Positions 13,269 through 59,245 of a stretch of DNA of 64,000 bases are shown one piece after another. Origin of the DNA: Warburgia ugandensis (taxonomy: Eukaryota > Streptophyta > Magnoliopsida > Canellales > Canellaceae); assembly GCA_035236585.1 (NCBI GenBank), contig CP141128.1:51573257-51637256 (forward strand), read 5' to 3'. A program made the translations under genes and the position numbers. Position 1 is the first letter of the stretch, and the number at the start of each line of letters is the position of its first letter. Below the pieces are notes generated by a model. That model searched no databases and had not been told where the DNA came from. It saw only the letters and a list, made by a program, of their open reading frames with translations.

Positions 13269-13286
13269 TGGCATATCATCATGCCA
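13269..13286 (-). other. TGGCAT/ATGCCA hairpin in LTR-B
   Basis: A 6-bp perfect stem with a 6-nt loop, matching 58551-58568 and the 45910-45927 hairpin. The partner hairpin (13288-13303) is present with one mismatch. Confidence 0.6.
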
Positions 13287-15035: not shown

Positions 15036-18000
15036 AAATGTCATTCATGGAGTTTTATTATTCTCCTAAGCTGGACCAAGGAATTTATATTCCTTATATT
15101 ATCCTACTAACTATGGTCCTTACTATCATTAAGTCCAAGTCATACATTCCATGTGAATGCCCATTCCTTCTAATTTCATTTAATTATCATTTCAATGAAA
15201 TTACAATTACTTAAGCATTGAAGCATAAGTTTAAAGAATAAATAACAAGTAACTAAACACTTAAATAAACAATTAAATAAGCAATTCTAGAATTAACTAA
15301 GAATTGAAATACAATTATCATAATGTTCAATAATTGAAATAGAAATCTAACATGTTATCATGATCCAAGGGTCTTAATTGATCCATAGTCATCCTTCATC
15401 TTTTTAAGGTTTAGATCTTGATCCTTCATTTTATTTTAGATCAAACATATTATATTGATGTAATTTAATTATTAAATCATGGATTTATCTCATCCATTGA
15501 TTTGATCTTCCTTGATCTACCCGATCAAGGAGATCTTAGGTTACTTTGTACCATTTAAGGGCATAGATCTTGATCTAGCCCAAATCCACATCATCCCTTA
15601 ATTAAATCCCTATGATCTTATCTCAAGATCATCATCAAAATACATCCATACTATCCAATCATCCTGGATCATCTTGATCTAGGAGATACTATTCAAATTT
15701 AAGGGTTTTAGTAACCCGTAAGGCTAGATCTCTTAAGATCTGCCTAATAAATACAATTTAATCCACTGATATTATTTATTATATTATAAAATAATCATCC
15801 AATAAGGTATTTGTGGTCTGATTATCCTAGATCTTGTAGATCAAGGATGTTAGTTACTTATCTACTTAATTATAGAAATTTTAATTAATTAAAATTAAAA
15901 TTTTATAAGTTCAGTCTATTTGTATTATCACAAGGAATCCATCCCAACTTTCTGATCTCAATTAGGATCTCAATTGGGATCAGAATTGAAATTTTAAGAT
16001 TTCAGCCCTTTTTAAGGGCTAAATTTTACCTTACTATTTTTATCATTTTGGACTGATATAGAGGCATAAAAATTCTACTGTGAACATGTATATTAAGGTT
16101 TTTGGATCTTCTGAACACACCTATCGGTTTCGATTTCATGTTTGGGGTTATGTGGGCCATGATCCATGATCAATGGCATAGATTTCATCAAAAAGATCAT
16201 GTAAATACTACTTAAAATCACGATCTAATAATTTCACTGAATTACTAACATCAACTTCATTCCAAATAAAGTTTCTGATCTAAAATCAGAGTTCAATTAA
16301 AGTCAAAATTAATATTTCAATATTTCAGCCTGTTTTAAGGGCTGAATTTCATCTTTTCTATTTTTGATCCATTAATTCATATAGAAGAACATAAATCTTA
16401 CTGTGAATATGATCCTAAGGTATTAGTGTATCTCTGAAGACATCCATCGGTTCCGATTTGTCTTTTAAAGTCATCTGATCCATGATCTATGATCATCGAT
16501 ACTGAGTTTCACAAATAACATATATAATAACAACTTGAAACATGCATATAATATATTAAATATCTAGACCAAGTGATAAGAAATCTGTAGAAACTTTCTG
16601 ATCTAAAATCAGAGCTATATTGATCTCTGAATTGAAGAAATAAAAGTTTCAGTTAACTGAATGGACGGACCAGATCCGTTCTGGGTTACAGGTACGGGAC
16701 GATCACCATCCCACACCTGTTACCGCCTAACCCAGGTATCTGGGCAGGGGTGACCTGCTATAGGCGAGACAGTCTGATCTGGACCATCAGATCGCCCGTG
16801 GCTGGATCTCCTCTGTCCGTTCACATCAAAAGACCAGATTTCCTCTCTTGGGGTTTTGGGACCCCAGGAAGTCATCCAACGGCTCAGAAGATTCATCTGA
16901 GCCATCTCTGATGAGATCTCCATCACCCAAGCCGGATCCATTGTCTCCGATGGATCTACGGCTGGGGAGATCTCTTCATAGCCGGAAAACCCTGTTAGCC
17001 TACTGGAATTGAAAGTGGGGGTGCCAGTGCACCTCCCTGTGCTGGTCTGGAGGGGAGGAGCTCACCGGAGACTGAGAAACTAGTCGGAGAAGAAAAGGAA
17101 AACCCTAGACGCCGGATAATGCATACAGGGAGCTATTTGTCCGTTCCCATTGCCAGATAATATAGAAAAGCATAGGGGTTTTGTAGATCACCCCATTATG
17201 GAGATGAACAACGATTCTAGATCACCGTTTAACGATCGGATTGGCCGAAATATCATGAAGAACATGCCGGAAAAGGTAACCCTTACTGGGTTGAATTTCG
17301 TTTTCATTTTTCCAGCGATCCAATAGATGGATCATCCTCAAATCAAAGGGCATTTGTACATATCCCATTTTCTAACAGATCTAATGGTGAAGATTAGGTT
17401 TCAACGGCAAAAAAGTGATGGCTAATTGAAATAGGGTTTCCTAGGCAGAAACCCGTTTCATTGGGGACGACGCATCCCGGGACGCGCCCGACTTCTCCAC
17501 TCAGTTTGGAGAGCCTGGGGGATGTTTTTGAAATTGTTATTTTTTAGAATCTTAGGGGACCTCGTGAGGATCATTAGGGAAATTTTTGGGATTTTTCTGA
17601 GCTACTTATAGAGGTATTTGGAATTTTTCATGATTACATGAAATCATAACTTTGATTTCTTTCGATTTTTTAATTGTCATTGGATTCCCACTACCACCTC
17701 CTTCTCCACTAGCAGGTGGTGGTGGTTTGACTAATTATGGCTGTTTTTTTCTAGACGTTGGAACCATTTGTGGGTCCCTTGTGTGCCCCATGTGGGCCCC
17801 ACATGAGTGTGAAAAGACCAAATTGCCCTTTTATGGAGAAAAATCCATTTTATTCTCCCGAGCTCGGAATTGAGCGTACTTAGTGGCGTTGGATTCATAT
17901 TTCGGAGTACATTCCAGATTTGGATGTGTCCGGTCTAGATTATTTGTGAAATTATCATTTTGCCCTTTCATTCATTAAAATGAAGAAAAATATAGATTTT

Positions 18001-18203
18001 TCATCCATATTCAGAAATTGACGTGCTTACAGTCAATTTAAAGCTTTCATCACATATGTTTTCAATTATACATCTCTCATACCTTGATTCCACTTCTATG
18101 AGAAGTGCATATTTTATAACCCTAATATTCTAGCCTGATTTTCATTGAAATTCTAAATTTCAATATTTATTTAATTTCATCATAAAAAATTAGGGGTGTT
18201 ACA

Positions 18204-18895
18204 TCAACAAACCCAAACCCCTACCACACGAGATCCTTCCCCTGATAAAGCAATAGATAGGATTGAGGTTCAGTTAGAAAGGTTTCAGAAATTATCTCCC
18301 TCATTCACAGGAGAAGATGAAGCATCTATAGCTGAAAAATGGTTAATTGATATTGAAAAGATATTTAAAGCCATGAACAAAGTTGAAGAAAGAAAGGTAC
18401 CCGTGGCCACGTTTGTGTTTAGGGGAGAGGCTACCTTTTGGTGGGAAACAGTGGAAAGGACTTATTTTGACCAGCAAGAAAGAATAGGATGGGAAGAATT
18501 TAAAAAGGTCTTTAATGACAAATATTATCCTAAACGCGTAAGAAAACAGAAGGAAAAAGAATTTATGGACTTAGAACAAGGTTTCATGACTATCCAACAG
18601 TATGAAAATAAATTCATCAGCCTCCGAAGATTTGCACCACATGCTTGTGCTGATGAGGAAGACGCAACGGAAAGATTTGTAGATGGGCTCAACCCAGGAC
18701 TCAGGAACAGAGTTCTAGGTTTCCAACCTTCCACTGTAGCCAAAGCCATAGAGATGGCCTCCCTATACGAAAAAGATTATCAAAGGAATTAGGCGATAAA
18801 GGAAATTAAGAACACCAACACCATGAGAAATAAAGGAAAGAGACCATTTCAATCATCTGGACCCAGGCCACCTTAGAGCATGTATTATTTCTGCC
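18204..18895 (+). pseudogene. gag, main domain and broken zinc knuckle
   Basis: Continuation of gag after the nested LTR. The frame from 18205 to 18789 encodes the Retrotrans_gag-type capsid region: a FLK-type start (FQKLSPSFTGE), AEKWLIDIEKIF, VATFVFRGEATFWWETV, and a YENKFISLRRFAP motif. This is the nucleocapsid precursor that packages element RNA. It stops at TAG 18790-18792, where a CAG would be expected. Beyond it, the zinc knuckle (about 18880-18930) is broken: FCHE is followed by a frameshift and only HIAQGCPFF remains readable in another frame. Dead gene. Confidence 0.88.
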
Positions 18896-20332
18896 ATGAA
18901 AGCAGTTAAGCACATTGCTCAGGGATGTCCATTCTTCTTGGCCAAGATTGAATCTATCAAGAGTCCCCAACCAAAGCTAGAGGATGTCGAGGTAGTCCAA
19001 GAATTTCCTGACGTATTCCCTGAGGACTTACCAGGTCTACCCCCACAAAGAGAAATTGAGTTTACCATTGACCTTATACCCAGTACTTCCCCTACTTCCA
19101 AAGCTCCTTACCGAATGGATCCTGTAGAACTAAAAGAATTGAAGACCCAGTTACAGGAACTACTTGACAAAGGGTTCATACAACCTAGCATATCTCCATG
19201 GGGAGCTCCAGTCCTTTTTGTTAAGAAAAAGGATGGCTCCATGAGATTGTGCGTAGACTATCAGATGCTAAATAGGGTCACCATTAAGAATAAGTACCCC
19301 CTTCCCTAAATTAATGATCTTTTTAATCAACTTTAGTCAGCCAGAGTCTTCTCTAAGATTGATCTACGATCCGGCTACCATCAACTTCGAGTTAGAGAAG
19401 AAGATATCCCCAAGACAGCCTTCAGGACTTGATACGGCCATTATGAATTCAAAGTGATGTCCTTTGGTTTAACTAATGCTCCAGCCACATTTATGGACCT
19501 CATGAATAGGGTGTTCCAGGAGTACTTAGACAAATTCATCATAGTGTTTGTGGATGATATCTTAATATATTCAGAAACTCTTGAAGACCATAAGGAACAT
19601 CTAAGGATAACATTAAGCACCCTAAGAGCACACAAGTTATATGCAAAATTCAGTAAGTGTGAGTTTTGGCTGGAAAAGGTTAATTTCTTAGGACACATTA
19701 TTTCTCAAGATGGCATAGCAGTTGACCCCGCTAAGGTTGAATTAGTACAGAAATGGAAAAGACCTAAGACAGTCACAGAAATAAGAAGCTTCTTAGGACT
19801 TGCCGGATATTACAGGAGATTCATCGAGGGTTTTTCACGAAGTGCTTTACCTTTAACTAAGCTGACCAAGAAAGACATAAGATTTGAATGGACTGATAAA
19901 TGTGAGGAAAGCTTCCAAGAACTAAAGAGAAGGTTAACTACAACACCTGTCCTTACCTTACCTTCAGGAAGTGGCAAATTTGAGATATACAATGATGCCT
20001 CGCAACAAAGACTAGGCTGCGTACTTATGCAACACGGGAAGGTAATTGCTTATGCTTCTCGGCAATTCAAGAAGCATGAAGTCAATTACCCGACCCATGA
20101 CTTAGAATTAGCTGCCATAGTCTTTGCCTTGCAAATCTGGAGACATTATCTATATGGGGAAAAGTTTGAAGTTTTCACAGATCATAAGAGTCTTAAATAT
20201 ATCTTTTCCCAACAAGACTTAAACATGCGACAAAGAAGATGGATGGAATACTTAAAAGACTATGACTTCTCCATTCATTATCACCCTGGAAAAGCTAATG
20301 TGGTAGCTAATGCATTAAGTAGAAAAACCTAA
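18896..20332 (+). pseudogene. pol: reverse transcriptase and RNase H, protease lost
   Basis: The frame at 18896 starts in the gag zinc knuckle ([12 protein letters not shown]) and passes within about 20 codons into the sequence just before RT ([15 protein letters not shown]). The whole aspartic protease is therefore deleted. RT follows: [46 protein letters not shown], and the catalytic FVDDIL. RNase H follows, with an active-site aspartate kept in [18 protein letters not shown], and the end motif [10 protein letters not shown]. In-frame stops lie at 19307-19309 (TAA), 19334-19336 (TAG) and 19430-19432 (TGA). Ty3/gypsy chromovirus type. Not functional. Confidence 0.95.
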
Positions 20333-21855
20333 GGGATGTGTGCAAGTTTATTTACTAAGAGATGGAAGCTATTACAAGAAGTAATAACGTGAAAACCAGA
20401 CATAAGTAAGCGCAAGATCATTATGGCAGGTCTAACGATAAAGTCGGCTGTTAATGAAAGGTTAAGCAAGCACAGCATGGGGATCCAGACATACAAGCTT
20501 TAATAGGAAAACCAAGGTTTACTAAAGGGGAAGATGGTAGCGTTTACATGCAAGGAAGATTAGTGGTACTGACTAATGAAGAATTAAGACAAGAAATCTT
20601 AAAAAAGGCTCATCGGTCTAAGTATACTATACACCCGAGAGGAACTAAGATGTATCAAGACTTAAAGAGACAATATTGGTGGGACGGTATGAAAAGAGAC
20701 ATAGGGGAATTTGTGGCAAAGTGTCTAACATGTCAACAAGTAAAGGCCGAACATCAAAGACCTACAGGATTGTTACAACCCCTTGAGTTACCCAAATGGA
20801 AATGGGATCATATTACCATGGACTTCATCGTAGGGTTACCCAGGACCTCTAAGCATCATGACATGATCTGGGTAATTGTTGATAGATTGACTAAGACAGC
20901 CCATTTCCTTCCTATATGCCATACCCAATCCATTGACAGCCTATCTCAGCTATACATCAAAGAGATGGTGAGTTTACATGGCATACCCCTTAGTATCACT
21001 TCAGATAGGGATAGCCGCTTCACTTCACAACTCTGGAAGTCCATCCAAAAATCCTTAGGATCTTCCTTCAACTTTAGCGCAACCTTCCATCCACAGACCG
21101 ATGGATAGTCAGAGCGCACGATCCAGATAGTCGAAGTTATGCTACGAACTTGTGCCCTCGGTTGGAAGCAGAGCTGGGATGAAAACCTGCCGCTAGTGGA
21201 GTTCACGTACAACAACAACTTTCAGTTGAGCATTGCAATGGCTCCGTACGAGGTGCTCTATGGGAGACCTTGTCGATCACCCACCAGTTGGAGTGAAGTT
21301 GGAGAGTCCAGGGTGCTACAGTTCAAGCTGGTGGAGCAATGCACCAAGACGGTCAAACTCATAAAGAAACGCCTCCTCACAGCTCAAAGCCAGCAAAAGA
21401 GCTATGCTGATCAAAGGAGGAGACCATTAGAATTCGACATAGGAGAGCACGTTTTCCTGAAGATATCTCCCACTAAAGGAGTTATGCGGTTTGGTATCAA
21501 AGGCAAGCTTAGTCTGTGTTACATAGGACTTTTTGAAATCTTGGAGAAAGTAGGAAAAGTGCCCTACAGGATCGCACTACCCCCTCAGCTATCTGATGTG
21601 CATAATGTATTCCATATATCTATGCTAAGGAGGTATGTGCCTGACCCTGCTCATGTCATCACCCAGGTACCCATGGAGTTGACGGAGGATCTCAAGCTGG
21701 AGACGAGACCAATTGAGATTCTAGATCGTAAGAGTAAGAACCTGCGGAACAAAGACATACACTTAGTCAAAGTTTTGTGGAGAAATGCGCACATGAAAGA
21801 AGAGACTTGGGAACCGGAGTCAGAAATGCAAGAAAAGTACCCCGAGATCTTTTGA
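20333..21855 (+). pseudogene. pol: integrase with chromodomain
   Basis: 20333-20547 is a degraded linker with a frameshift. From 20548 one frame encodes integrase, which inserts element cDNA into the host genome. The HHCC zinc domain is visible (AHRSKYTIHP ... CLTCQQ). The DDE core is visible as MDFIVGLP, ITSDRDSRF and, after a TAG at 21106-21108, the glutamate in SERT. The C-terminal region has a GPY/F-like segment (YIGLFEIL, with the expected GPF changed to GLF) and ends in a chromodomain-like stretch (PIEILDRK, LVKVLWRN, ETWEPE). A C-terminal chromodomain of this kind assigns the element to the Tekay/Del chromoviruses. Confidence 0.93.
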
Positions 21856-21906: not shown

Positions 21907-24176
21907 TGTAATGACTCCATTTTTGTAACCTTGAAATCCCATGTTGGTAATGAAAAGTTCACTTTTTGAGATAATGGTATTTTGGTCATTTCATTGTTCA
22001 CCCTAACTAGACCTAGAAATTTGTTCCTTAGGATGGTACCCTTAGGTTCCTCTCATAAAAAGGAATCCAACAAGACCAGAATCACCCAAAACGGAGTTAA
22101 AATGAGCAAGTTATGGCACTTTGAAGTTCAAGGGCAAAATTATAATTAAATTGAAAACGAATTGGCCTGAGAAAATAGGGACCCGTTTTGATACGAGCGC
22201 CCCCTTCTTTCCAAACATACTATATCACCCACATTCTAGAATGCCGGTGTGCAAGGGGGAAACCACCGCCATTCTGGAGGTTTCTCCACCACCATTCCAT
22301 GGTAGTGGAAACCCCCCTCCAGAACCCTCCTTAAGCTCTATAAATAGAGCTCTTGGGCGCCTCCAATGGTAGCCCAAGACCCTAGGAAAAACCAGTCTTG
22401 GAGTTGCAAGCAAGAGGAGAAACCCTGAAAAATACCCAGCCATGAACCAGGTACGCCTTAAACAACTCCAAAACCATCTCCCCTTCAATCTTAAGTTGAA
22501 TGCCCCTAAGTTTTTGCATGAGAAACCATGCAAAACGGGGCTCTAGGGAGCCACAACAGACCCAGGGCAGGTGCCTAGGGTGTTTTGGTTTGACAGGGTC
22601 GAACCAGGGCTTCCCGAGAACGTCCAGGTCACCACGGAACCAAAACGCACCAATGCATTAAAGCCCACAGATGAGAAAAGGGGCGGAGGCCCAGTGCATC
22701 GGCGGACGCGCCCACAGGATGCGTTAGCAACCCAGGCGCCTGCCTCCTGTGGGCCTGAGACAGTGACGCCGCACATTCCGCGTAAGCGGAACGCGCAGCC
22801 TGATGATGCCTGGGAGCATGCTACCGCACGTGCGGGCCAGTCGCCGCTCGAATGGGACGCAAGTGCGTCCTGAGAGCAGTGATGCAGGGCCCATTTTGGG
22901 GCCTTCTATGTATTCTTAATACTAAAATACCCATAACTTGAGTTCTAGGACTCCGATTGAGGCATTGTGTCCGTATCGACGGCGCGGACACACCCAAACC
23001 ATAAAATACCTGATCAAGCCCCTATCTAAGGCTGGCATGACCCTTAAACCATGACAGTGGCACGGGGCCACTAAACCTTTGCAAACCTGACTATACCAAG
23101 GCCCAGTTAGGGACCTTAGGAGGCCCTTAGGCATGGGAATGAACCCTTAATGCCTAAGTAGTGAGGTAAACTATCCTAGAACCTATGGAAATAGGCCAAG
23201 CTAACCTTTTTCCCCTAAACCATGTCCAGGAACGTACGAGGACAAGGGGACTAACGTGATCAAAGCAGGTAGGTGTCCTATCGCTACTAGACTTTTAAAA
23301 AGAACCCATGATGCTTTGAGAATGCATGTTTTGAGTCATGGTTGCTTTTCTAATGCATGTTTTAAGTTTTTAAGTTACATGTCTTGCCTTTATGCGTATA
23401 TCATATAAACTTATGTTACATCCTTATGCACATGACCTGTTTAGCATGAATTAATTTCATAAATGAACTTAGCATGCATATGAAAAATACATTGCGCATA
23501 TATTGCTAAGACATGTGTTACATGCATAGACATGTTTTGAAAAAAAAGGTTCTTGCCTGCTTGATAGTATATGATTTGGGTCAGTAAGCTCGTGGGCGCT
23601 ATGCCGAGAGGTTCGGGGTGGCCTCCCAGCCTCTATCACTATAGGTGGAAAGGGTACCACTCCAAAAAGGCTTGTCCTCACTTCGATTGCTGTGGTAAAT
23701 GAGGACTACCACTAGAGGTGTGACGACACTCGTCGAAGTGTCATATGCCCTATGGAGGCTATGACCGAGAGTCCCTAGGTACCCGGGGACCACACGGCGC
23801 TGAGGTCGTGGGCATAGTGTGCCCTATGTTTTTGAGGATTTACTTGCATGCATATGGTATGACATGAGTATGGTCGACCATAGATCCATGAGTTGGATTC
23901 AGTTGAGGCTATGACTAACCCTACCTTATCTTTTAGTGAATGTTACTTGATTGTGGTTACTCTCTGTAGCTGGGGCTATGACTAACACTTTCTTGGGAAT
24001 AGAGTTGATTTAAAACTATGCCATGGCTATATGATTTGAAAATGTGTTTTGACACTCGGGGTTTTATACGAAAGATTGCTTTCCAAAACAAAAGATTTTC
24101 ATGCATTTCATATTTCTAAAGTAAGAGATCTCGCCTTTTTATGAAATTTGCATCATATGAAACCCGGGTCGTCACA
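21907..24176 (+). repeat. 3' LTR of Tekay-like element
   Basis: 2,270 bp. It holds a TATA box (22338-22347), the donor-like CAG/GTACGC (22450/22451) and a GC-rich patch (22660-22870) with a perfect hairpin TTCCGC-GTAA-GCGGAA at 22776-22791. About 330 bp present in the 5' LTR is missing near 23895. It ends at GTCGTCACA and is followed by the CTATA target copy. Confidence 0.95.
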
Positions 24177-24181
24177 CTATA

Positions 24182-26336
24182 TTCTTTGTTTAATCTTGTC
24201 TTTTGATATAAAGAATCTAGATCTTTTGTCATATCATGATCTATCTTCCTCAGATAGTATCTATCCTATTGATCAATAGACCTGATGGTTAGAATGATCT
24301 TTTAATGTTTCTGATCTAAGTATTTTCTATTCTAAGTTTTTGTGTATTCCTTTCTTTGATCTTAATCTTTCATAGATCCTTTGATTAACAATTTATACTT
24401 GTTGATAAAGATGAAGGGCTTAGATCTTCTATCATCTAGTTTTTCTTTGATCTAAGTTTAGTTGTTTGATCATCCCTAAGGAGGATGATCTTAGTTCTCT
24501 TCCTTGAATCATATTTGATCAAGGGTTTAGATCTTCTATTCTATTTGATCTAAATTGCCAGCAATATATATATCATGTATTAAAAAGTATTTATTTCTTT
24601 TATTTTTCTTGATCATTCAAGATCTCATAGATCTTTTTTTATCATCATTATCTTACTTATAATTTTTATTAGGGTTAGATAATTTACTTACCTTTTATGC
24701 TCGTACTATTAGTCAACCAGTTAATGTTTTGCTAGTTGAAGATAGCTTATTTCATCCTAAGTCTAGACATCTCCTCTTATTTCCAATTGACTAAGGCTTA
24801 CTAGCTGAATGGCTAAACACAAAGTGGTTACTTCAATCCTCATGTAAGGTGGCATTTAGACCTCACAAACGTCAATAGAAGGTAGGGGAAGAGTGAGGCT
24901 CTATTAAAAAACCTCATTAACCACCATGTTTAGCATTCAGTAGAGCGACCTTAGCTTAACCTTTCATGAGGTTCTTATGAGCATTTTAACCTTAAGTACC
25001 CTTTCTAATTGATTTTAATTAAATCTATGAACATTTAAAATGTCATTCATGAGATTTATTATTCTCCTAGTTTGGTCCAAGGATTTGATAATCCTTATAT
25101 TGTCCTGCTAACTATGGGCCTTACTAATATTAAGTCAAAGTCATTCACTCATCTTAATTATCCATGAATCTCTATATTCCATTAGTTTACATTTTTGGTA
25201 TTTATGTTCATTATATCTCAACAACTACTTAATAATTGAATCTACTAATAAAATATGACAACAATTAAATCATAAACTTTAAAGTATAAATCCAATATAA
25301 ATTTAATAACTATTTATATTAACATGCTTCCTATGAATGTAACTTAACCTAATGGAATAAAACAATACTCAAACTAGCATGATCCTAAGTTATGAAATAC
25401 ATGAAATTTGACTAGTAATCTAATCAAATCATTCTTAAATCTTAAATTCAAACTATCATGGCCCTAAGATAATTAAATTTACAAAGCTATTAGAACAATC
25501 TAAGACATTTAGAGCACATCATGCCAAAATTTAAGAATTACACTATCATGCTTCCTAATTTGTAACTTAAATCACATTTACCATTCTATCTCAAATAAAA
25601 GGCAAGTAAACTAATTAAATTAAGATTATTAGAAACTTTTACTTATGATCCAATCATTAGATCTTAGATCTTTTCCTTTAGATCAAGGGTTTTAATTACA
25701 TGTAGGGCTTTTACTCCATTAAGATCCAAAGATAATATCCATTTATTTTTGTCACATTTAATCTATGATCTAACTGGATTTCATCATAATCCCATTAATA
25801 CAACCCATCCAAAGGGTTTGATCATGCTTGATCTCATTGATCAAGTGGGTCCTTTGTATATTTAGGGTTTTTCCACCATAAAGGGTCGATTTCTCAATGT
25901 ATCTTAGATCTGTCAAAATAAATCATAGATATCACTTTATTTTAGCATTATTATATCATTAAATTAGATCCCCAAGATCTAATTTTAGATCTTGAAGATC
26001 ATGAAAATTGGAAGCATACTTCCTAAAAACAGAAAGTTTCTTGAAGATTTTTATCAATTTTATGCTTTCAGAAGAAAATCAACATTACAAGCTTTCCATA
26101 GGTTCTTTCTGATCTTAATTTGGAGTTCAAATGACTCCACAATTGATGAATGAAGTTCACAATCATTCCAACGGTCCAGATTTGACCTGGGCCTAGCAAA
26201 ACAGACAGTCCTGATTATTTGAGTGGAGCGAGTCCAGTCGGGTGGAGCAGTCGCCGTGATCTTGTCACTGGACGCACATGGTAATGTGCTACCCAAGACT
26301 TGTGCTATCCATCGGGACGTCGTCGCACGCAAAGAG
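24182..26336 (-). mobile_element. Reverse LTR-B, segment 2 of 3
   Basis: It continues the LTR broken at 10743. Text here matches the reverse complement of about 43480-45235, including the GATC-rich stretch and the structured module (24788-25030). It stops inside the LTR at 26336, and the next LTR sequence reappears at 39006. At its right end it enters a GC-richer patch (26210-26335) as other copies do. Confidence 0.9.
24788..25030 (-). promoter_or_regulatory. Structured leader module, copy 2 (interrupted LTR-B)
   Basis: Stem 24853-24857 (CATTT) with 24867-24871 (AAACG) around loop AGACCTCAC. In the sense strand this is CGTTT/AAATG with one G-U wobble and the loop GTGAGGTCT. The GGGG/CCCC helix is weakened in this copy. 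Confidence 0.7.
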
Positions 26337-35666: not shown

Positions 35667-36894
35667 AGGGATAAGAACTATGTTTCTTTCCCCTTGGTAT
35701 TGGATGCATTGAATCTCTAGGTTTAAAGGTAGTAGCTCAAGATTCTAAGATCAATGCCCTTGCATGAACTATTCCTAATCTAAAATATCCTACTCTAAAT
35801 GCTAACTCTAGCTCTATGTGGTGCAAGCAAAAGACACAGTCAAACACCTTAGGCTAATAAGTAATATATTGATTTTCTTGAATTTGTGCAGGGACAATGC
35901 TTTTAATTAGCCTAATCTATCGCTCCTCCTCTCCTTTAGATTTGACTATTGCTTACTAGTTGGGTTCTGCACAAGGTGGTTAATACAACCCTCATGTAAG
36001 GAGTCATTTAGACCTCACAAACATCAACAGGAGGCGAGGGAAGAGCGAGGCTCTATTAGAAAAACCCCAATAACCATAGTGCTCAAAAGCCACTAGAGTG
36101 ACAATAAATTGTGTCTTAGTATGAGGGTCCTATGAGCATGTGATGGCCCTATAGGTCTCTTCTGATGGATTTTAATTTGATCTAAAGTGTAGGGTAGCAC
36201 GCTTGAGGTGATTATCTTAGGTGGGCCAATGAGTGGTGATAAAATCCACCCTTGATGTTATGGGGGTAAGGTGCCCTTACTAATTAAATTCCACACTCCA
36301 TGGTAGTTCTATCAGCATATATATCACCTTAAAGCATTAACCGTGTCCTACGATGCAATTAAAAGCAATAAACTAATGCAAAATCCTAAAAATGCAATAA
36401 TTGTAAAAGATGCTTTCTATATGAGTTACACTACCAAATAATGCAAATTTACTCTAAATGCAAACCCTAATCTAGGAATTAAATGAGTGAGGAAACTTAC
36501 AGTGGGGTTTTTGATGAAGATCAAGTGTGGGCCACCTTACCCCACACTTGCCCCGTATTATACAACCCTTTAAAATTAAAATGAAAATTGCAATTTACAA
36601 GGATCCTCACTACAAGATTCACTTAAAAGAAAAAAAAAAAGAAAAGAAGTCCTATTCTAGGAAAGCAAGAAAATTTCCATTTTGATGAAGATTTCCTTGC
36701 CAATTTCCTCCACTTTGCTATTTCCCTGAAAAAGAAAATTAGAAATGAGTACTAATTTTAAGAAATTAGGTGGTTGTGCACTAAATTTTTTTTTTTAAAT
36801 GAACCTAAAATTTTCTAAAATGTTGAAACTCTACAATTCCTATAAATTTTTATTTTTTGGAGTTTTTAATTAAATTTTATCAAAACTCCGTTGT
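35667..36894 (-). promoter_or_regulatory. Athila-like untranslated leader
   Basis: About 1.2 kb between the primer binding site and gag without an ORF. It includes, at 35944-36190, the structured module shared with LTR-B. The rest is AT-rich with a purine run (36627-36650). Confidence 0.7.
35944..36190 (-). promoter_or_regulatory. Structured leader module, copy 3 (in Athila leader)
   Basis: Homologous to the LTR-B module over about 245 bp; by eye roughly two thirds of positions agree, with long exact blocks such as CCTCACAAACATCAAC and GGCTCTATTAGA. Stem 36005-36009 (CATTT) with 36019-36023 (AAACA) and loop AGACCTCAC; in the sense strand TGTTT/AAATG pairs through two wobbles. AGAGC-CTC-GCTCT is kept. 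Orientation in the element (leader, sense) is the same as in LTR-B. Confidence 0.75.
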
Positions 36895-41906: not shown

Positions 41907-42523
41907 TGTAATAACCCCAATTTTTGTAATTGATTAAGAAAATCAATAAAGTTTGAGTTTCAGCTATTTCGGGCTGAAATATTAGGGTTATTTAGAATAT
42001 ACCTTTTAGAAAAGTGTAATCAAATAATAAGACATGTAAAATTAAAATTAAAATTAGCAAACCCTTCAAAATGATTATAAACATGACAAATTCTGAATTC
42101 GGATGAAAAATCCTTAAGTTTCTTCATTTCTTGGACAAAAGGGTAAAATAGTAATTTTACCCGAAAATCAAAATCTCCCAAAAATCAAAATATGAGACAT
42201 CAAAATTTAGAATTTACTAAGAAATACGAATCCAACGCCACTAAGTACACTCAAATCCGAGATCATGGGAATAAAACCCAAAATTTTATGCATAAATGGC
42301 AAAATGGTCTTTTTACACCATGTGGGGCCCACATGGGGCCCACAAAGGGACCCAAAAACCAATCTTATCAGCAGCCCACGTGAAGTCATGGATCAACAAA
42401 CATCAACTGGTCTTGGAGAAGAAAAATGGGGCATGGGGAAGAAAAAATGGAGCATGGAAGACTTTCATGCCATTTAATAATACAAAATAAAATATTATAA
42501 TCATGAAAAAAGACCCAAAATGT

Positions 42524-42533
42524 CTATAAATAC
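42524..42533 (+). promoter_or_regulatory. TATA box of LTR-B (41907 copy)
   Basis: CTATAAATAC, 617 bp from the LTR start; conserved in the other copies. Confidence 0.7.
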
Positions 42534-42894
42534 AACCCCAAAAATCCTCATAACATCCCCACAAAATTTTCTTCACTCTCCTTGAAAAATTAGACCTAGA
42601 TCCCTCCCCGAAAACCCAAAATTTTCAAGAGATATCTCTCTTTTCAATTTGTTTTTCTTTTTAGATTGGAACAAGAGACCTAAAATCAATTAGGCACTCT
42701 GTTCTAGATCTAATTTGATCAATTTCACCATCCAAAACTTCTCAACATATCTATTCTACAAAACCCCCAAAGAAATTTCAAGATCCAACGGTTCAAACAA
42801 TAGAAATTTGCAAGAAAGGTGGATCTAAGGCCATATCTTCATCAACAAGGTATTCTTTTTAAATCGGGCATATAACCAAGGTTTTTTCTCCAAT

Positions 42895-42900
42895 CAGGTA
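42895..42900 (+). promoter_or_regulatory. Conserved splice-donor-like site in LTR-B
   Basis: CAG/GTAGGTG within CTCCAATCAGGTAGGTG. Identical at 8237-8242 and, in reverse, at 39343-39348. The 54408 copy has the better consensus CAG/GTAAGT at the equivalent place (55605/55606). Confidence 0.45.
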
Positions 42901-43179
42901 GGTGGAAATACTTTCTATAGATGTTTAGTACTCTTTTATGTAATTTTTAGTTTACTATAATTTATTTTGGTAATAAAAAGGTAAAAATAAAGTAAACACC
43001 AGAACCCTTAATTCTGGATAATAGAGTGCTCTGATGAAAATTCTGACTGCATCAATCGATCCAAAAGGGTCCAAAACCCCTAGGGTAAATTTTCACAAAC
43101 ATCAGAGACATTTTGGGCCCTCAATTGAGAGAGGATTGATGGGACAATCCATAATGGACTGTCCGATCTCCAGATCTAA

Positions 43180-43440
43180 CGGCGCCCAAGACGCACACGT
43201 GACGCACCGTCGGAAACAGCGCTTGCGCTGTGTGTGGGGCGTCATCCCAAGCAAGACGACGGCGCGTCCATCAAATCCACGAGCAAACGCGCCCAGCGAC
43301 AACCCCGTTTACTAGCGCGTGGATGATGAGCGTTCCGCTCATCCCGTCCGCGTCTGTGGACGCACCTCAAGGGTGCTTCCTCCATTCATCCCAGCGGATG
43401 CGCCCGATGAACTGAACGTGTCTGCCTGGTTTGGTTTTCC
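43180..43440 (+). other. GC-rich, CpG-retaining patch of LTR-B
   Basis: A sharp GC-rich block in AT-rich sequence, with many intact CpG. It holds a perfect 8-bp hairpin, GATGAGCG-TTC-CGCTCATC, at 43325-43343, and CAGCGC/GCGCTG at 43217-43230. Open frames here on both strands are products of base composition. Confidence 0.75.
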
Positions 43441-44479
43441 GCCCAAAAGATCTGGGCCGTCCGTTCCTTGAGCCCAGATCAAATCCAGGCCCTAGGAAGG
43501 ACTGTGAACTTCCAGATCCAATTCCAGAGTCATCTGAACTCTAAATTAAGATCGAAAAGAGTTATGGAAAGCTTGAAACCTCTATTTTCTGATGAAATGA
43601 TAAAATATGCATACTATTCATTAAAAACTTTTTGTATTAAAGAAATAAGTTTCAAATTACCTAGATCTTCAAGATCTGAGATGATCAGATCTTAAAAATA
43701 TGCTTTAATAATGATATACTATTGAAATAAAGTGAGATCTATGGTTTAATTGGATATATATGAGATATATTAAGGGATCTACCCATTATGGTAGCAAAAC
43801 CCTAAAAATACAAAGGAACCCACTTGATCAATGAGATCAAGTGTGATCAGATCCTTGGGATGGAAAGAATAAATGTTGATATGATGAAATCCAAGCAAAT
43901 CATGGATGGATTATGACAAAAATAGATCAATATGATCTTTTGACCTTAATAAAGAAAATTCCCTAAATATAACTAAAATCCTTAATCAAAGGAAAAGATC
44001 TAAGATCAAATGGTTGGATCATAAGTAAAGGTTTCTAAAAATGTTAATGTAATTAGTGTCATTTTATATAATAGCATTTTAAATATGATTATGTTATAAA
44101 GCATGCTAGTATAACATTTAGACTTTAGCATGATATGTGATTTCATTGTTATCATAAGGTGCTAGATTTAATTATTTTAAGTACCTTGCCTCATTATCAT
44201 TAAATGTTAAATTATGTAGTTTTATGCTTTGAATTTATAATTCATTTATGGTTAAATGTTATTAGTAGATTTACTTGTTATAAGATAAAGAGCATAAAAC
44301 ATCAAAAATATATTCTAATGAGAAAGTAGAGTTTCATTACACAAATAAGAATGGAGTACTTTGGACTTAATTAGTAAGGGCTATAGTTAGTAGGACAATA
44401 TAAGGATTATCAAGTCCTTGGCCCAAATTAGGAAAAGAATAATAAACCCCATGAATGACATTATAAATATTGATGGACT

Positions 44480-44715
44480 TAATTAAAATCCATTAGAAAG
44501 AGTACTTAGAGTAAACATGCTTATAGGAACCTTATGAAAGGTTGAGCTATGGTCATTCTATTGAATGATGAACATAGTGGTTAAGGGGGTTATCTAATAG
44601 AGCCTTGCTCTTCCCCTACCTTCCGTTGACGTTTGTGAGGTCTAAACGCCTCCTTACATGAGGATTGAAGTAACCACTTTGTATTCACCCATTCAGCTAG
44701 TAAGCCTTAGCCAAT
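44480..44715 (+). promoter_or_regulatory. Structured leader module, copy 4 (LTR-B 41907)
   Basis: Best-preserved copy. Helices in order: AACCTT/AAGGTT (44528-44533, 44538-44543); TCATTC/GAATGA (44553-44558, 44563-44568); long-range AGTGGTTA/TAACCACT (44576-44583 with 44671-44678); AGGGG/CCCCT (44584-44588 with 44613-44617) enclosing AGAGC-CTT-GCTCT (44599-44611); CGTTT-GTGAGGTCT-AAACG (44630-44648). GAGG of the last loop could also pair with CCTC at 44649-44653 as a pseudoknot. No ORF spans the block. Confidence 0.75.
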
Positions 44716-45884
44716 TGGAAATAAGAGCAGTCTAGATTTAGGCTTGAATAAGGTAGCTTCAACCAGCACATTAACTGGTTGAATAATAATAATAAGAGCA
44801 TAAAAGGTTAGTAAATTACCTAACCCTAATAAAAACAGTAAGTAAGATAAGGATGATCAAACAAGATCCATTAGATCTTGGATGATCAAGAACAATAAGA
44901 ATAAGAACACTATATTGTACTTAGTATGCATGTTTATTAGTATACTTGTTATAGTTCATTAGATTAGATAATCCAAACCCTTGATAAAAGATGATTCAAG
45001 GAAGAAAACCAAGATCATCCTCCATAGGGATGATCCAATAACTGAACTTAGATCAAAGAAGAACTAGATAATAGAAGATCTAAGACCTTGATCTTTATCA
45101 ACATGTGTAGATTGTCAATCAATGGATCTATGAAAGATCAAGATCAAGGAGATGGACATACAAAGACTTAGAGATAGAAAAATACTTAGATATGAATGAT
45201 CTAAAGATCATTCTAATCATCAGATCTAGTGATCAATAGGATTGTTCATAATTTATATATTGACAATATGTATGGATGTACAGATTACATACATCAGCCA
45301 GGATCATGAAAGATTGGGAAAAAGAGATCAATCCGTAAAGGTAGGAGGATTTGATGAATGCATACATGATTGTACTCATGATCTTATGTTGACAAGAGTA
45401 ATGATAATACTTGTATTAAATCTCTTGAAAACCTTATGATCCAACCAAACACATATAAGATGGTTAAGGACTAAACTATAAGTGAATAGGAAACTAGGAA
45501 ATATTTCAGCCTTAAGTAAACAGATATATGGCCTAATATATATGAAATCTATTTTACATACAAGCTTAGAGGCTTGTGAGTTTGTTTTAATAGGCATAAG
45601 CTTAGGGGAATGCTATTGCTAGAGGAGTTATGAGGGTTTGGCCACCCGTTCCTTGAAATTTGATGATGTGATGATACCTTGCCTTAAGAGAGGCTAAAAG
45701 TCGGGTGGTGGCAATTATGGGAAGGCCACCACTGTGAAAGTCTTGCCCCCTCATACGGGCAGTGATATAATATTTTCCACCGTGGTATCAGTGGTGAACA
45801 GGGCAGTTATCCGAGCACTAGTACGGATCAGACTGCAGCATAGCAACCTTTCTGATTATTTTGCACTATGATGCATATGAGAAT

Positions 45885-45927
45885 AGGCATAGTGAAATGC
45901 CTTATGTTATAGCATAATGAAATGCTA
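45885..45927 (+). other. Twin hairpins of LTR-B (41907 copy)
   Basis: AGGCAT-AGTGAA-ATGCCT (45885-45902) followed by TAGCAT-AATGAA-ATGCTA (45910-45927). In the 54408 copy the second stem is TGGCAT/ATGCCA, so a G-C pair there corresponds to an A-T pair here with both sides changed. Confidence 0.7.
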
Positions 45928-46211
45928 GGTAATTGTATATTACCAATATTTCCCAGGAAGGGAAATTCCCAGTATAAGATTAGCTGTAATACTCAATTCT
46001 CAAAATGAAGAGAATTGATCAGCTTAGTTGGGAATGATATTTGACTACTTGCACAAATTTAACTGGTTTACCCATGAAGGGTATGTATGTATATAGATAT
46101 ACATAACTTACAAAGTAAAGAGTATGTTTAAGGATAATGAGATTATGAAGTATTGGAATTACCTTGTCAATTATTATGTTTCTTGAATCCCCTACCAAGC
46201 ATTGCTTGCTA

Positions 46212-46236
46212 AGATATTGTACTTGTTGCAATATCT
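46212..46236 (+). other. Conserved LTR-B 3' hairpin, copy 3
   Basis: AGATATTG (46212-46219) and CAATATCT (46229-46236) form 8 bp around a 9-nt loop. Just upstream CAAGC-ATT-GCTTG is also kept. Shorter than in the other copies. Confidence 0.7.
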
Positions 46237-46439
46237 CAGATACAGGGAAGGAGAGTTAGGAGCTGAAGACTATAGAAGACTTGAAGAGAATAATCTTCAA
46301 GGTATACCCTTGAAGACATGTATTTTTCTTTGTTGAGAGTTTTATTGTATGGTGAGCTTGAGTTTTGGATTATGTAATTTGGACAAGTATTGTACTTGAT
46401 TTGGCTGTGTTGTGAACCACTGGATGGATCCTGGAGTTT

Positions 46440-46445
46440 AATAAA
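46440..46445 (+). terminator. Poly(A) signal of LTR-B
   Basis: AATAAA, conserved at 59057-59062 and, in reverse, at 12662-12667 and 9238-9243. In full copies it lies about 180-200 bp from the LTR 3' end. Confidence 0.6.
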
Positions 46446-46500
46446 AGTATATTCTTTTAATGGAATTTTATTTTGTACACAAATTGTACTTATGTGAAGT

Positions 46501-53936: not shown

Positions 53937-54407
53937 TCAAGGCCCCTCATTTTGGGAAAATTTTGTAGAAGGCTCTTTGGTTGGAAAAACAAAACTCTTG
54001 CCAAAGTTAGAAGACTAACACTAATAAAATCAGTTTTGTCCAATAAGCCTATTTATGTGGCCTCCTCTCCTAATACCTTCTAATGATCTTTTTGAATGTG
54101 ACAAATTGTAGTGTGTCTATCTTTAGAATGGGAGAGGTGATACTCCTAATCCACATATGGTTGCTAGGGAGAATATCACCATGCCTAAATCCATGGGAGG
54201 GCTCAGTATTATAGATTTGTCTGTTATGCAAAGGACTCTCAAATCAGCCTCATAGCCTTGGAAGGATTCTCAAAATTGAAAGACTTGTTTCATTTTGGGG
54301 CTTCCATGGATTATTGGAGATGGATCCATAACTAGGCCCTTGCAAGACAATAGGAATAGGATTGGACCACTTTCCAAGTACTCACTACCAAAATTGAGGT
54401 CTTATAA
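53937..54407 (+). pseudogene. Second LINE fragment: end of reverse transcriptase
   Basis: Reads FGWKNKTLAKVRRLTLIKSV and LSNKPIYVASS, the C-terminal RT region of plant LINEs (family form GWK-x-LS-x-GR-x-TLIKSVL). Then come MPKSMGGLSIIDLSVMQRT and the start of the zf-RVT region. This lies downstream of RNase H text, the reverse of the order within one LINE, so it is a separate 5'-truncated copy. It is interrupted at 54407 by the LTR-B. Confidence 0.8.
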
Positions 54408-54973
54408 TGTAACACCCCTAACTTTTGTAAGGAGATTGAATAAATAATGAAATTAAAATTTTTAAGAAAAATCAGGATAGAATATTAGGGTTATTAAAAA
54501 TGCACTTCTCATAGAAGTAGAATCAAGGTATAAGACATGTATAATTGAAAACATACTCAATGAACCAATCAGAATGACTATAAGTACGACAAATTCTAAG
54601 CCTGAATGAAAAATCCTTATTTTTCTCCATTTTTATGAATAAAAAGGGTAAAATAGTAATTTTACTCATAACTGAGACCTAAGACAATAATATTTAGAAT
54701 GTACTCAGAAATACGATTCCAACACCACTAAGTACGCTCAATTTCGATTTGGGAGAATAAAATTGATTTTCTCCACATAAGGGCAAAATAGTCTTTTCAC
54801 ACCTTTGTGGGGCCCACAAATGGATCCAACAGTGAGAAAACATGTAATCATGAGTCAAACCACTACCACCTACTAGTGGAGAAGGAGGTGGTAGTGGGAA
54901 TCCAATGACAATTTAATACTAAAAAGAAATGAAACATGATAATTACATATAATCATGGAATATTCAAAAATCC

Positions 54974-54983
54974 CTATAAATAG
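54974..54983 (+). promoter_or_regulatory. TATA box of solo LTR-B
   Basis: CTATAAATAG, 566 bp from the LTR start. Confidence 0.7.
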
Positions 54984-55602
54984 CCCATAAATTTCCCAAA
55001 AATTTTCCTAATGTTCGTCATGAGGTCCCTTACCATGCCCTGAAATCCCAGCTCCAAAATCCTCCCCAATATTCCCCAAAATTTTCTTCTTTCCTTCTTT
55101 CTCTCTCTTTCCCTAGGAGAATGTCTACAAACGCACCCGACAGACAATTTATGTTTGTTATTAGAGCATGTCCAGAAACGCGTTGTCCCTGATGAACAAA
55201 GGTTTTTGCATGGGAAACCCTATTTGACTTAGCCATCCAATTCCATCTGTTAGAATCAGATCTCCACCATTGGATCTGTTCGGCCAAAGTAAATCTACAA
55301 AAGCCTTAAGAAATTTGGATGATCTACCTCTTGAATCGACAGGAAACTCAAAATGAAAACAAGAACGGTACTGGGTACTGTCTCCAGCAATAAAAACTAG
55401 TTATTTCAGTGAATCTGGCCATTAAAAGTCAATCTAGAACCATTGGATCTCTTCAATATGTGGTGATCTACAAAAGCCCCATATTTTCCAGTTTTCTCCG
55501 GCAACAGAATCAGAGAAATCACGCTCTGTATATTTTTCAATGAAGCTAGGATTTCTTTGGTGTTATTTCTTCTTCTCCATGAAAATCTTTCACCGGCCGG
55601 CC

Positions 55603-55609
55603 CAGGTAA
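55603..55609 (+). promoter_or_regulatory. Consensus splice-donor-like site in LTR-B
   Basis: CAG/GTAAGT, a full match to the plant 5' splice-site consensus, about 600 nt after the predicted RNA start. Other LTR-B copies have CAG/GTAGGT in the equivalent place. Confidence 0.5.
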
Positions 55610-57259
55610 GTTGTTTCCCCTCCTTCTTAAGTTCATTCCATCATTCCCCTACAGTTTTCTAGCTTACTTTGGATCTCCTTGACCGTTGATCCATCAAAAA
55701 AGATGGATCCATCATGAAGGGTTGAGATCCCATCCATTCACAGCTTAGATGCAACTTTTGAGCTGTTGGATAGATTCTTGGGGCCCAAAAATCCCAAGAG
55801 ATGTAATATGGGCTATTGATCTTATAAGATGAGGGAGATCAAGTGATGAGCGATCCGACAATCTAGATCTGGACCATCTCGCCTATCACCGGTCACCTCT
55901 CCTAGGTGATGGGTAATCCTAGGTAACGCCACATAGGCTGCCCTCCCAGTTTGTCACATTCTGTGGAGTTGACCTGAACTGTTGACTTTTGATTTGAAAC
56001 CTTAATTCTTCAATTAAGAGCTCATTTTAGCTCTGATTTTAGATCTGAAAGCCCTGATGAATTCCTTATTTTATGTAAAATCTTATGGAATTATTATAAT
56101 TATGTTTTTAATTCTGTTTATGTAAATTATTTAGTAAAATTCGTAGTAACAAACTTGGATCATGATCAAGATGATCTCAAAATAGAGATATGAATAAAAA
56201 GATAGGTTTATGAGGTCCCAAAACTCTAAGTACCATGATCACAGTAAAATCTCTCGATCTTTAAATCAAGTAATTAAACAAAAACAATAAGATCAAATAT
56301 TAGCCCTTAAAACGGGCTAAAATCTTAAAATCCAAATTCTGATCTTAATTTAACTCCAAATTGAGATAAAAAAGTTGGGTTGGCTTCCTCTTGATGAGGA
56401 GAACCTACTAAACCAATAAAATCATAAGTTTAATTCATTAAACATTTTGAATTTAAGTAGGTAAGGGTACTAACATCCTTGATCTACAAGATCTAGGATG
56501 ATCAAACCATTTAAATCATTTTGGATGATGATCTAATAATATACTAACTTAAATAAATGGGTTGGATGTAATTGAATTGGCAGATCTTAAGAGATCTAGC
56601 CTTAAAAGTAGTAAAATCAATAAAAATGAATTGTAATCTCCTTGATCAATTTGATCAAGGAAGATTGGACAATATGGATGTAATTGGATGATGATATAAA
56701 GTTAATATCATATGAATTGATAGACTTGATGATGATAATTTGGGATAGATTAAGATCTATGCCCTTAAATTGGATAAAATGACTTAAGATCTTCTTGATC
56801 GGTTGGATCAAAAAAGATTAAATCATATGATGAGATGTATCAACAATCTAGTGATAAAATCACATTAAGAAAATGTATTAGATCTAAAGGAAAATGAAAG
56901 ATCAAGATCTAAACCCTAAAAGGGATATAAAAAAATGAATAGAAATCAACTATGACTATTGGATCACGATGAACAGTTATGACATGTTAAATTTTCATTT
57001 GAATTATTGAATGTTATTATAATTGTCTTTTTATTGCTTAGTAGATTTAATTGTTAGATTTATTTATTTATGCTTTAATGCTTATGTTATGAAAATTACA
57101 TTGAAAATGTAATTAAATGAAAAATAGAGTTGAAGGACATTCACATGGAATGAATGACATGGACATAATGATAGTAAGGGCTACAGTTAGTAGGATAATA
57201 TAAGGAATATCATTTCCTTGGCCCAAATTAGAAGAATAATGAAACTCCGTGAATGACAT

Positions 57260-57520
57260 TTTAAATGTTCATGGATTTAATTAAAATCAATTAGAAAGAG
57301 TACTTAGTGTTAAAATGCTCATAGGAACCTTATGAAAGGTTGAGTTAAGGTCACTCTAGTGAATGCTGAACATGGTGGTTAAGGGGGTTCTCTAATAGAG
57401 CCTTACTCTTCCCCTACCTTTCGTTGATGTTTGTGAGGTCTAAACACCTTCTTATATGACGAATGAAGTAACCACTTTGTGGTCAACCATTCAGCTAGTA
57501 AGCCTTAGCCAATTGGAAAT
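57260..57520 (+). promoter_or_regulatory. Structured leader module, copy 5 (LTR-B 54408)
   Basis: TGTTT-GTGAGGTCT-AAACA at 57428-57446, a T-A pair in place of the C-G pair of copy 4. AACCTT/AAGGTT, GGGG/CCCC, AGAG/CTCT and GGTGGTTA/TAACCACT (one wobble) are also kept. Confidence 0.75.
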
Positions 57521-58533
57521 AAGAGGAGCTGTCAAGACATAGGATGGAATAAGCTATCTTCAACCAGTAAAACATTAACTGGTTGAATATTAATAATAAG
57601 AGTATAAAAGGTTAGTAAATTATCTAATCCTAATAAAAATTGTACGTAAGATAAGGATGATCAAACAAGATCCATAGGATCTTGAATGATTAAGAATAAT
57701 AAGAATCCTAATGTCGTATTTTATTATGTATCTATGTATGTATGTTATAGAAAAATCTAGATAGAGAATTTAAACCCTTGATCAAACATGATTCAAGGAA
57801 AAATTATGGCATCCCTTATAGGAATAGATGAAGAAAGAATACTTGTATAAAGGAATAACTTTATACGTATGGTTTGATAGATGTATGAATCAAGACCATG
57901 ATGGACAATATGGAGTAAATACCACTTGAGATGTTGAATCAAGACCATGATACCACCATGATCTTCTGTCTAGAATTATAGACCTTCATTATATAAGTAT
58001 CCTTGGTACCTTAGCATAATAATGATCCTATCACATGATCCAACCAAATGATCTAACCCCATGATCCAATTCAATTGATCCAATGATCTAATCAAATGAT
58101 GAGAAATTAATGAGGTGTTTAGACTAAGGAAACCCTATAAATAGTGACATAGAAAATATTCCAGCCTTAGTTAAACAGACACATCATCTGTTATGTACAA
58201 TGTATTTTACATACAAGCATGTTGGCTTGTGATTTTGTTTTACACAACCATAGGACTGGGGATGCTATGTTAGGAAAGTTATGAGGGTTTAGCCACCTAC
58301 TTCCTAAAATTTATATGATGAATACCATGCCCAAAGAGAGGCTAAATGTCAGGTGGGGAAATTATGGGAAGGCCTCCATTGTGACAGCCATGATCCTCAC
58401 CCATGCAGACATGGACTTTGTTATTTTCACAATTGGCATCAGTGGATTATTATGCAATTATTCGGGCATTATACGGATTTAGACTGTGGCATAGTAGTCC
58501 TTAAGTATTTTGCATTATGATGCACATATGATA

Positions 58534-58568
58534 GGCATAGTGTAATGCCATGGCATGATGAGATGCCA
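58534..58568 (+). other. Twin hairpins of LTR-B (54408 copy)
   Basis: GGCAT-AGTGTA-ATGCC (58534-58549) and TGGCAT-GATGAG-ATGCCA (58551-58568), two adjacent hairpins with the same stem and loop size. Confidence 0.7.
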
Positions 58569-58831
58569 CTACATGAGTTCCTAGAAAGAAAATCCCGCAT
58601 GAGAATGGGCTGAATATTGATCTCCTAAGTGGGAGTAAAGTCAGGGGAAGGATCAAATTTTGAGCATTTTTACTATTTTTAATTGATTTACCCTATACTA
58701 CATAAATAATGTATATACTCTATGTTGAGATAATCCATGAGTAGATAACCATGATAGAATAATGACTGAGGTATGTATTCTTATATTAGTGAAGTAGTAT
58801 ATTTTTGTATCCCCTACCAAGCATAGCTTGC

Positions 58832-58869
58832 TGAGATATTGTAAATGTTTGAATGTTTACAATATCTCA
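58832..58869 (+). other. Conserved LTR-B 3' hairpin, copy 4
   Basis: TGAGATATTGTAAA (58832-58845) pairs perfectly with TTTACAATATCTCA (58856-58869) over 14 bp. CAAGC-ATA-GCTTG lies just upstream (58819-58831). About 190 bp before AATAAA. Confidence 0.85.
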
Positions 58870-59056
58870 AATATAGGGAAGGAGACTTAAGAAAGAAAGC
58901 TTAAAGACTCAGAAGTTGTAAGACTGATCAGGGTAATTCCCTTGAAGCTTGTGTAATCTGGTTATGTACTTAATTTGGATTGTATTTGGACAATGGATTG
59001 TAATTGTAATATAGGGGCTGTGTAAAAGTGAACTACTAGATGATTCCTGGTATTCA

Positions 59057-59062
59057 ATAAAA
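59057..59062 (+). terminator. Poly(A) signal of solo LTR-B
   Basis: AATAAA in ATTCAATAAAAATTT, at the same place relative to the LTR end as in the other copies. Confidence 0.6.
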
Positions 59063-59245
59063 ATTTATTTTATAAAAAGTGTCTATGTGTATTATATACA
59101 TTGAGGTGAGACTTGGGTTTCGTTACAAACGAATTTAAAAGAAAAGAATTTTTGCTACATTGTTTGCAATTTTTTTTTACCATTAAGGGCCCAACCTTTG
59201 AAAAATGTATTACAAAATGTGTTACAAAAACTCAGGTCATCAAAA

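Follow-up and report, generated by a model that had tools for sequence, protein, structure and literature searches.

LARDs carry LTRs of about 4.5 kb. They are described, in the part of PMC7215508 that deals with them, as elements without protein products whose RNA secondary structures are well conserved, and they were first described from barley and its kin, to judge from the title of Kalendar et al. (2004) as cited there. Retrozymes (PMC4918200, PMC9695139) are elements whose LTRs contain hammerhead ribozymes, and for the Arabidopsis element Copia93/Evade an ENE triple helix is described in PMC12501189. The subject of this study is a conserved block carried by LTRs in the window, i.e. the whole stretch of 64,000 nucleotides that was analysed. 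Our main reading, to which we give a probability of about one half, is that the block represents a transcribed, folded stretch midway along the LTR of a LARD-like Ty3/gypsy element, in which the pairing of the hairpins H1, H2, H8 and H10 and of a junction domain is kept between families.

The initial annotation had reported five copies of a block of about 240 bp, with a 5-bp stem around a 9-nt loop as its core. Sequence comparison located five copies at the claimed sites: the flagged copy of family A, recovered by sequence match (44481-44730, plus strand), three copies of family B (57279-57528, plus strand, in an LTR at about 54407-59242; 14773-15021, minus strand, in a minus-strand LTR with inserts; 24771-25027, minus strand) and one copy of family C (35926-36177, minus strand). 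The stem and loop letters quoted for the five copies are as written, including GTGAGGTTT in the 14.8-kb copy. The proposed block length is adequate for the comparison of the flagged copy with the most diverged one, where about 250 bp can be matched (36-kb copy, 72.7% identity over 256 positions), but it is too short for the other three, which match over 544-607 positions (57-kb copy, 85.5% over 607; 25-kb copy, 83.4% over 607; 15-kb copy, 83.5% over 544); a comparison of families A, B and D puts the block at about 500-650 bp. For the loop word GTGAGGTYT, the window has six occurrences where 0.89 would be expected, and the sixth (12752-12760) is located outside the block.

The window belongs to a genome of 1.12 Gb in 14 contigs, from which 20 stretches of 10 kb were sampled, 18 of them at round intrachromosomal positions and two beside the window. 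Eleven block copies were found in 10 of these 20 stretches, in addition to a short fragment in L042, and matches to the LTR of L009 cover 39,008 of the 200,000 sampled bases. Extrapolated from this mid-chromosome sample (11 copies in 200 kb), the genome would hold perhaps tens of thousands of copies of the element. The block is carried by four LTR families, designated A to D. Of 1,972 candidates, 40 were scored, and the 98-99% copies among them form family A together with the flagged copy and L009. Family B comprises the 57-, 15- and 25-kb copies together with L037, L040, L049, L051 and L053, family C the 36-kb copy with L046, L056 and L057, and family D L042, L043, L055 and, more distantly, L050a. 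L011r is intermediate between A and B and was labelled as one or the other depending on the alignment.

Compared with the LTR of L009 in steps of 125 bases, the 57-kb copy shows 86-89% identity in the four steps from position 2501; in the three steps upstream of this position its identity amounts to 40-56%, and downstream it falls from 71 to 41%. Four B copies are 74-90% identical to LTR positions 2501-3000, and a further conserved LTR stretch appears near 3626-3875. Family D, represented by L042, has identities of 88, 69, 73 and 86% to L009 in the four block steps, and elsewhere, for example at LTR positions 1501-2000 (71-85%), it is conserved like the block. It follows from these stepwise identities that the conserved unit exceeds the flagged 236 bases and that, in family D, this unit is better conserved at the edges than in the centre. 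For family C, detectable matches to the L009 LTR are limited to its start, at 9-1266, and to the block, at 2606-2872. In the B copy L037 (4054-4300), a deletion of about 46 bases removes the flagged stem-loop together with its 5' neighbourhood.

The block had originally been assigned to a retrotransposon leader. Its retrotransposon origin was confirmed, but it lies inside an LTR of about 4.75 kb, and the leader is at most putative. The LTR that contains the flagged copy (family A, 41907-46495, plus strand) has its 5' end TGTAATAACCCC at 41907 and is homologous to positions 2-4637 of the L009 LTR of about 4.79 kb, its last ~150 bp being absent; the conserved block occupies 44360-44990 on the plus strand, corresponding to about LTR positions 2490-3110. 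In L009-L011, L013 and L014, the LTR starts with TGTAATAACC and ends with GGGTCGTCACA, the end in L013 being GAGTCATCACA, and the block is found about 2.5 kb into it. The length is about 4.79 kb in L009 (2356-7143) and about 4.74-4.76 kb in L013 and L014, which are regarded as solo LTRs because 5-bp target duplications flank them (TCTAT in L013, AATAC in L014). The minus-strand LTR of the 15-kb copy, which extends with its inserts from 12461 to 18203, is likewise bordered by TCAAC at 12456-12460 and 18204-18208. A PBS, TTGGTATCAGAGC, which we take to be complementary to the 3' end of the initiator tRNA-Met, directly follows the LTR in L010 and L011, and the polypurine tract AAGGGGGGAAGA precedes the LTR in L009 and the second LTR of L010. 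No ORF above 83 aa was present in L009 1-2355 (a partial internal read), above 125 aa in L010 7183-9607 (an internal piece that is maybe deleted) or above 106 aa in L011 7176-9901 (again a partial internal read). Matches on the same strand are spaced by 7,994, 7,972 and 8,493 bases, and spacings of 8.0-8.5 kb would be expected of two LTRs that enclose some 3.3-3.7 kb of internal sequence. The block-bearing element is most likely a LARD-like member of Ty3/gypsy, seemingly non-coding and non-autonomous. A separate observation concerns L009 3546-3939, which by its codons is G+C-rich within an LTR that is AT-rich elsewhere, and which has overlapping ORFs (91-121 aa) on either strand.

A conserved RNA module had been proposed, and what remains of it is a conserved folded block, not the stem-loop that was named as its core. 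The consensus fold of 17 of the 30 copies reaches -64.6 kcal/mol, as opposed to -27.0 (sd 4.9) in 100 column shuffles and -29.6 (sd 5.0) in 100 tree-based nulls, none of which was as low. The 13 sequences left out of this set were six near-identical A copies, the four C copies, L050a (truncated), L037 (deletion) and L012 (rearranged). The covariation term of RNAalifold was stronger than in 97 of the 100 shuffles and 94 of the 100 tree nulls. In an unguided, R-scape-style all-pairs test of covariation on the 30 copies, none of the pairs was significant; the best E, 0.17, belonged to one that alternates between C-C and A-A. In stems chosen strand-neutrally, compensated Watson-Crick pairs account for 62 of the 756 changed cells in the block copies compared with 4.3% expected (25/500 nulls), a modest excess. 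For the individual hairpins described below, the helix-wise numbers are generous because these hairpins were picked from the same sequences. There was no excess in a six-sequence set (16 of 267 changed cells, 245/500 nulls) or in LTR 1545-2205 (24 of 256, 180/500 nulls). In LTR 3575-4205, which is a further conserved stretch with hairpins, 20 of 117 changed cells were compensated as opposed to 6.2% expected (0/500), a share above that of the block.

The sense strand folds better than the antisense strand in all three sub-blocks (17-19 copies), with z values of -4.1/-2.7, -11.8/-8.6 and -6.7/-2.7, and in the whole 17-copy block (-64.6 vs -48.7). In a scan with five sequences, the 5' part (1-375) favours the sense strand, and the 3' part (301-750) is slightly better in antisense. 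Elsewhere in the LTR of L009, antisense had the lower energy in 6 of 9 folding windows of positions 1545-2205 (A5; best z -10.0 vs -3.7), and in 5 of 7 folding windows of LTR 3575-4205 (A4). Because the antisense strand folds as well or better in these other stretches, hairpins must be considered a property of much of the LTR; they are spread over it, and the block prefers one strand only modestly.

Within the block, several individual hairpins were recognised, all given here on the plus strand of the flagged copy. Hairpin H1 (44402-44419) has the arms AAGGAT/GTCCTT in this copy. Most A copies have AAGGAT/ATCCTT, and 6 of the 8 B copies and 3 of the 4 D copies have AAGGAA/TTCCTT; the upper stem of H1 is longer in D and, by eye, in C. 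Hairpin H2 (44449-44476), CCATGAAT/ATTCATGG, contains one mismatch in the flagged copy, reads CCATGGAT/ATCCATGG in three D copies and is unrecognisable in C. The two were evaluated together in 17 of the 30 copies, excluding C and nine A copies (alignment A7). Paired cells amounted to 97.3% as opposed to 92.8% after shuffling (0/500) and two-sided cells to 10 as opposed to 3.5 (0/500), while the tree null reached these values in 0/1000 and 1/1000 cases, respectively. The measures that are less swayed by relatedness are weak, with 3 two-sided pairs vs 1.4 (27/500) and 10 pair types vs 9.8 (303/500). An apparent compensation in H1 of L049 was rejected, as the altered bases belong to neighbouring pairs. 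Hairpin H8 (44758-44783) is formed by TTCAACCAG/CTGGTTGAA; its arms TTCAACCAGT/ACTGGTTGAA contain 6 two-sided cells compared with 1.25 in the tree null (14/1000; 18 of the 30 copies, alignment A8). Copies w14 and L040 carry such two-sided changes, as do single pairs in L053 and L009. Hairpin H10, GATCA...CAAGATC/GATCTTG...TGATC (44855-44887), shows little variation.

The junction domain (44576-44678) is closed by AGTGGTTA (44576-44583) and TAACCACT (44671-44678) and encloses GGGG/CCCC and AGAGC/GCTCT. Of the neighbouring helices named in the initial annotation, the closing helix is the best kept, with pairing in 99.1% of cells for the six inner pairs, but it hardly varies, and the junction helices contain no two-sided change in the aligned copies. 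The domain has a folding z of -4.05 on 19 copies and, on five sequences, of -3.0 in sense (1/200) and -1.3 in antisense. Scan columns 301-450, where z is 0.0, miss the 5' arm of the junction (columns 290-297).

The flagged stem-loop, CGTTT-GTGAGGTCT-AAACG (44630-44648, plus strand), is unsupported as a conserved helix: the shuffle test, its pair probability and the broken pairs in family D all speak against it. In 19 of the 30 copies (alignment A6; nine near-identical A copies, L037 with its deleted stem and the truncated L050a were dropped), the stem is paired in 87.4% of cells vs 87.8% with shuffled partners, and its covariation is 0.194 vs 0.199. The pair counts do not include the other near-identical A loci, which belong to L001-L008 and L015-L034. 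Against a tree-evolved null, the 87.4% compares with 66.9% and was reached by 93 of 1000 replicates. When the junction domain was folded for each of the 30 copies, the mean pair probability of the stem was 0.00-0.05. Every combination of stem letters was said to pair, which is correct for the five window copies, but all five pairs are possible in only 21 of the 29 copies with stem columns, the thirtieth being the B copy with the stem deleted. By family, the full stem is found in 12 of 14 A, 5 of 7 B, 4 of 4 C and 0 of 4 D copies, the D row of L050a being doubtfully aligned, and the four D rows and another four copies each have one or more broken pairs. Three D copies have CGTAA opposite AAACG or AAATG, which breaks two pairs, and the loop, described as near-invariant, reads GAGAGGTCT or GAAAGGTCT in family D.

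Among the five window copies, the stem varies at two CpG sites only, with all changes being C-to-T or G-to-A, and a two-sided change occurs in the 57-kb copy alone. Two of the three kinds of CpG change give U-G or G-U and thus cannot break pairing. The use of G-U pairs had been taken as a sign of selection on RNA. This argument fails because C-to-T in a C-G pair always yields U-G, and because G-U and A-C departures are equally common in the block stems, which were chosen strand-neutrally for this tally (170 vs 174 cells, 46 vs 37 distinct). Genome-wide, TGTTT...AAACA, the only variant counted at this scale, occurs at 370 places and its reversed control at 0. The flagged stem is most likely a decaying CpG sequence that happens to be pairable.

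An H-type pseudoknot requires a loop that is long enough to cross the first stem. The suggested pairing of the loop GAGG with CCTC is a different case, as CCTC directly follows AAACG and the crossing loop has zero length; since no nucleotide would be available to cross the 5-bp stem, we reject the pseudoknot on the grounds of this geometry. On the plus strand, GAGG at 44637-44640, CCTC at 44649-44652 and a second GAGG at 44660-44663 are competing partners. The first GAGG pairs with CCTC with a probability of at least 0.5 in 20 of the 30 copies, the 19-sequence consensus prefers CCTC with the second GAGG, and GAGG/CCTC, like the flagged stem, shows no covariation. According to the alignment and the folds, the letters of family D instead permit GTAAG-A-GAGG with CCTC-CTTAC around TCTAAACG. 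In the middle of the block, ACCT, GAGG, CCTCC and GAGG alternate, so that the first may pair with the second and the third with the fourth, or the second with the third inside a pair of the first and fourth.

The initial annotation named no known RNA family, in agreement with 0 Rfam matches at the gathering score in the 64 kb. At E<=1, only DLEU2_4 was matched, on the minus strand with 20.3 of the 40 bits needed. ARAGORN found no tRNA gene in the window, searches with the core sequence gave 0 matches each in viral and prokaryote contigs, and no title on such an LTR block was among the literature matches listed.

The main rival of a folded transcript is that the block is conserved as DNA, for instance as a promoter, enhancer or start-site region, its hairpins being DNA inverted repeats without an RNA role that are perhaps renewed via template switching during reverse transcription. 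We consider this possible, though with clearly less than an even chance. The equal G-U and A-C departures (170 vs 174) and the unguided all-pairs test without a significant pair are consistent with it, as are the antisense folds, which equal or surpass the sense folds in two other stretches of the LTR and have a slight edge over the 3' part of the block. Some of the two-sided changes also fit, since they occur in single copies (L040, w14) that may be old and no longer selected. However, the sense strand beats the antisense strand in all three sub-blocks, and H1 and H2 are compensated between families, beyond single copies. It is rather unlikely that no special selection is involved and that the block reflects a recent family split or recombination, with hairpins as in any AT-rich LTR. 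The families do look mosaic, as family C detectably matches the L009 LTR only at the start and in the block, but shuffled and tree-evolved alignments of equal composition fold far worse, and the B block retains 74-90% identity compared with 40-57% just upstream. The module as first proposed, an RNA-selected 5-bp stem with a nearly invariant 9-nt loop and a loop pseudoknot, is very improbable. In its favour are the five of five window copies that pair and the 21 of 29 copies that do so fully; opposed to this, covariation is no better than in shuffles, the pair probability is 0.00-0.05 in 30 copies, pairs are broken in the four D rows and four others, the D loop is altered, the variation in the window copies is all CpG transition, and the crossing loop of the pseudoknot has zero length. 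With covariation in a larger alignment as the measure, which the initial annotation itself had named, the module is largely refuted.

For a transcribed, folded mid-LTR stretch, which we prefer, the following course can be envisaged. The block would sit in the transcribed part of the LTR, wherever transcription may start, and its folded RNA would be recognised in cis, upon which the proteins of an autonomous chromovirus would package and copy the block-bearing RNA. Recognition by the proteins of another element would be the simplest use of a folded block. A candidate for the partner is a chromovirus in the window, which has the same kind of PBS and closely similar LTR ends. A bolder version, that a multi-hairpin domain of about 600 nt in a 4.75-kb LTR, common to seemingly non-coding families, is a trans-recognised replication or packaging element whose middle possibly acts as a two-state switch, is speculative and seems to us a long shot. 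If the block is transcribed and recognised by an autonomous partner, it would reveal what enables the copying of an element that seems to be non-coding, and it would be a compact test piece for the packaging of plant retrotransposons. As it stands, it adds one more LARD-like family with structured LTRs. It is also a warning that CpG decay and G-U pairing can mimic covariation in five copies.

Compared with known systems, the chromovirus of the window (18175-21855) has degraded ORFs for gag at 18175-18792, reverse transcriptase with RNase H at 19433-20332, integrase at 20458-21108 and, at 21109-21855, an SH3-like domain with a chromodomain, whereas the internal pieces of the block-bearing element were read without a long ORF. 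It is followed by a polypurine tract and an LTR start, TGTAATGACTCC, near 21907. This start resembles TGTAATAACCCC of the block-bearing LTR, the polypurine tract is G-rich as well, and a similar LTR end with the same PBS is located upstream at 12176-12200. At the search thresholds used, neither the block nor the L009 LTR was matched in positions 21907-24176. The gag region of this chromovirus contains the family B-like LTR that carries the 15-kb copy. Retrozymes share with the present element the non-autonomous character and a structured RNA in the LTR, but in the window no Rfam family, hammerheads included, reached the gathering score. Copia93/Evade is another case of an RNA structure in the transcript of a plant LTR retrotransposon, although that of Evade is a poly(A)-binding ENE. 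The anatomy is that of LARDs, with which the element shares very long LTRs (about 4.74-4.79 kb in L009, L013 and L014), a PBS (L010, L011) and a polypurine tract (L009, L010). Its internal pieces, read partially in L009 and L011 and from the maybe deleted L010, have no ORF above 125 aa and may thus be non-coding as in LARDs. As to a conserved RNA structure, folding beats shuffles, yet no unguided pair is significant and G-U departures equal A-C departures. What sets the present element apart from LARDs is that its folded block is located in the middle of the LTR.
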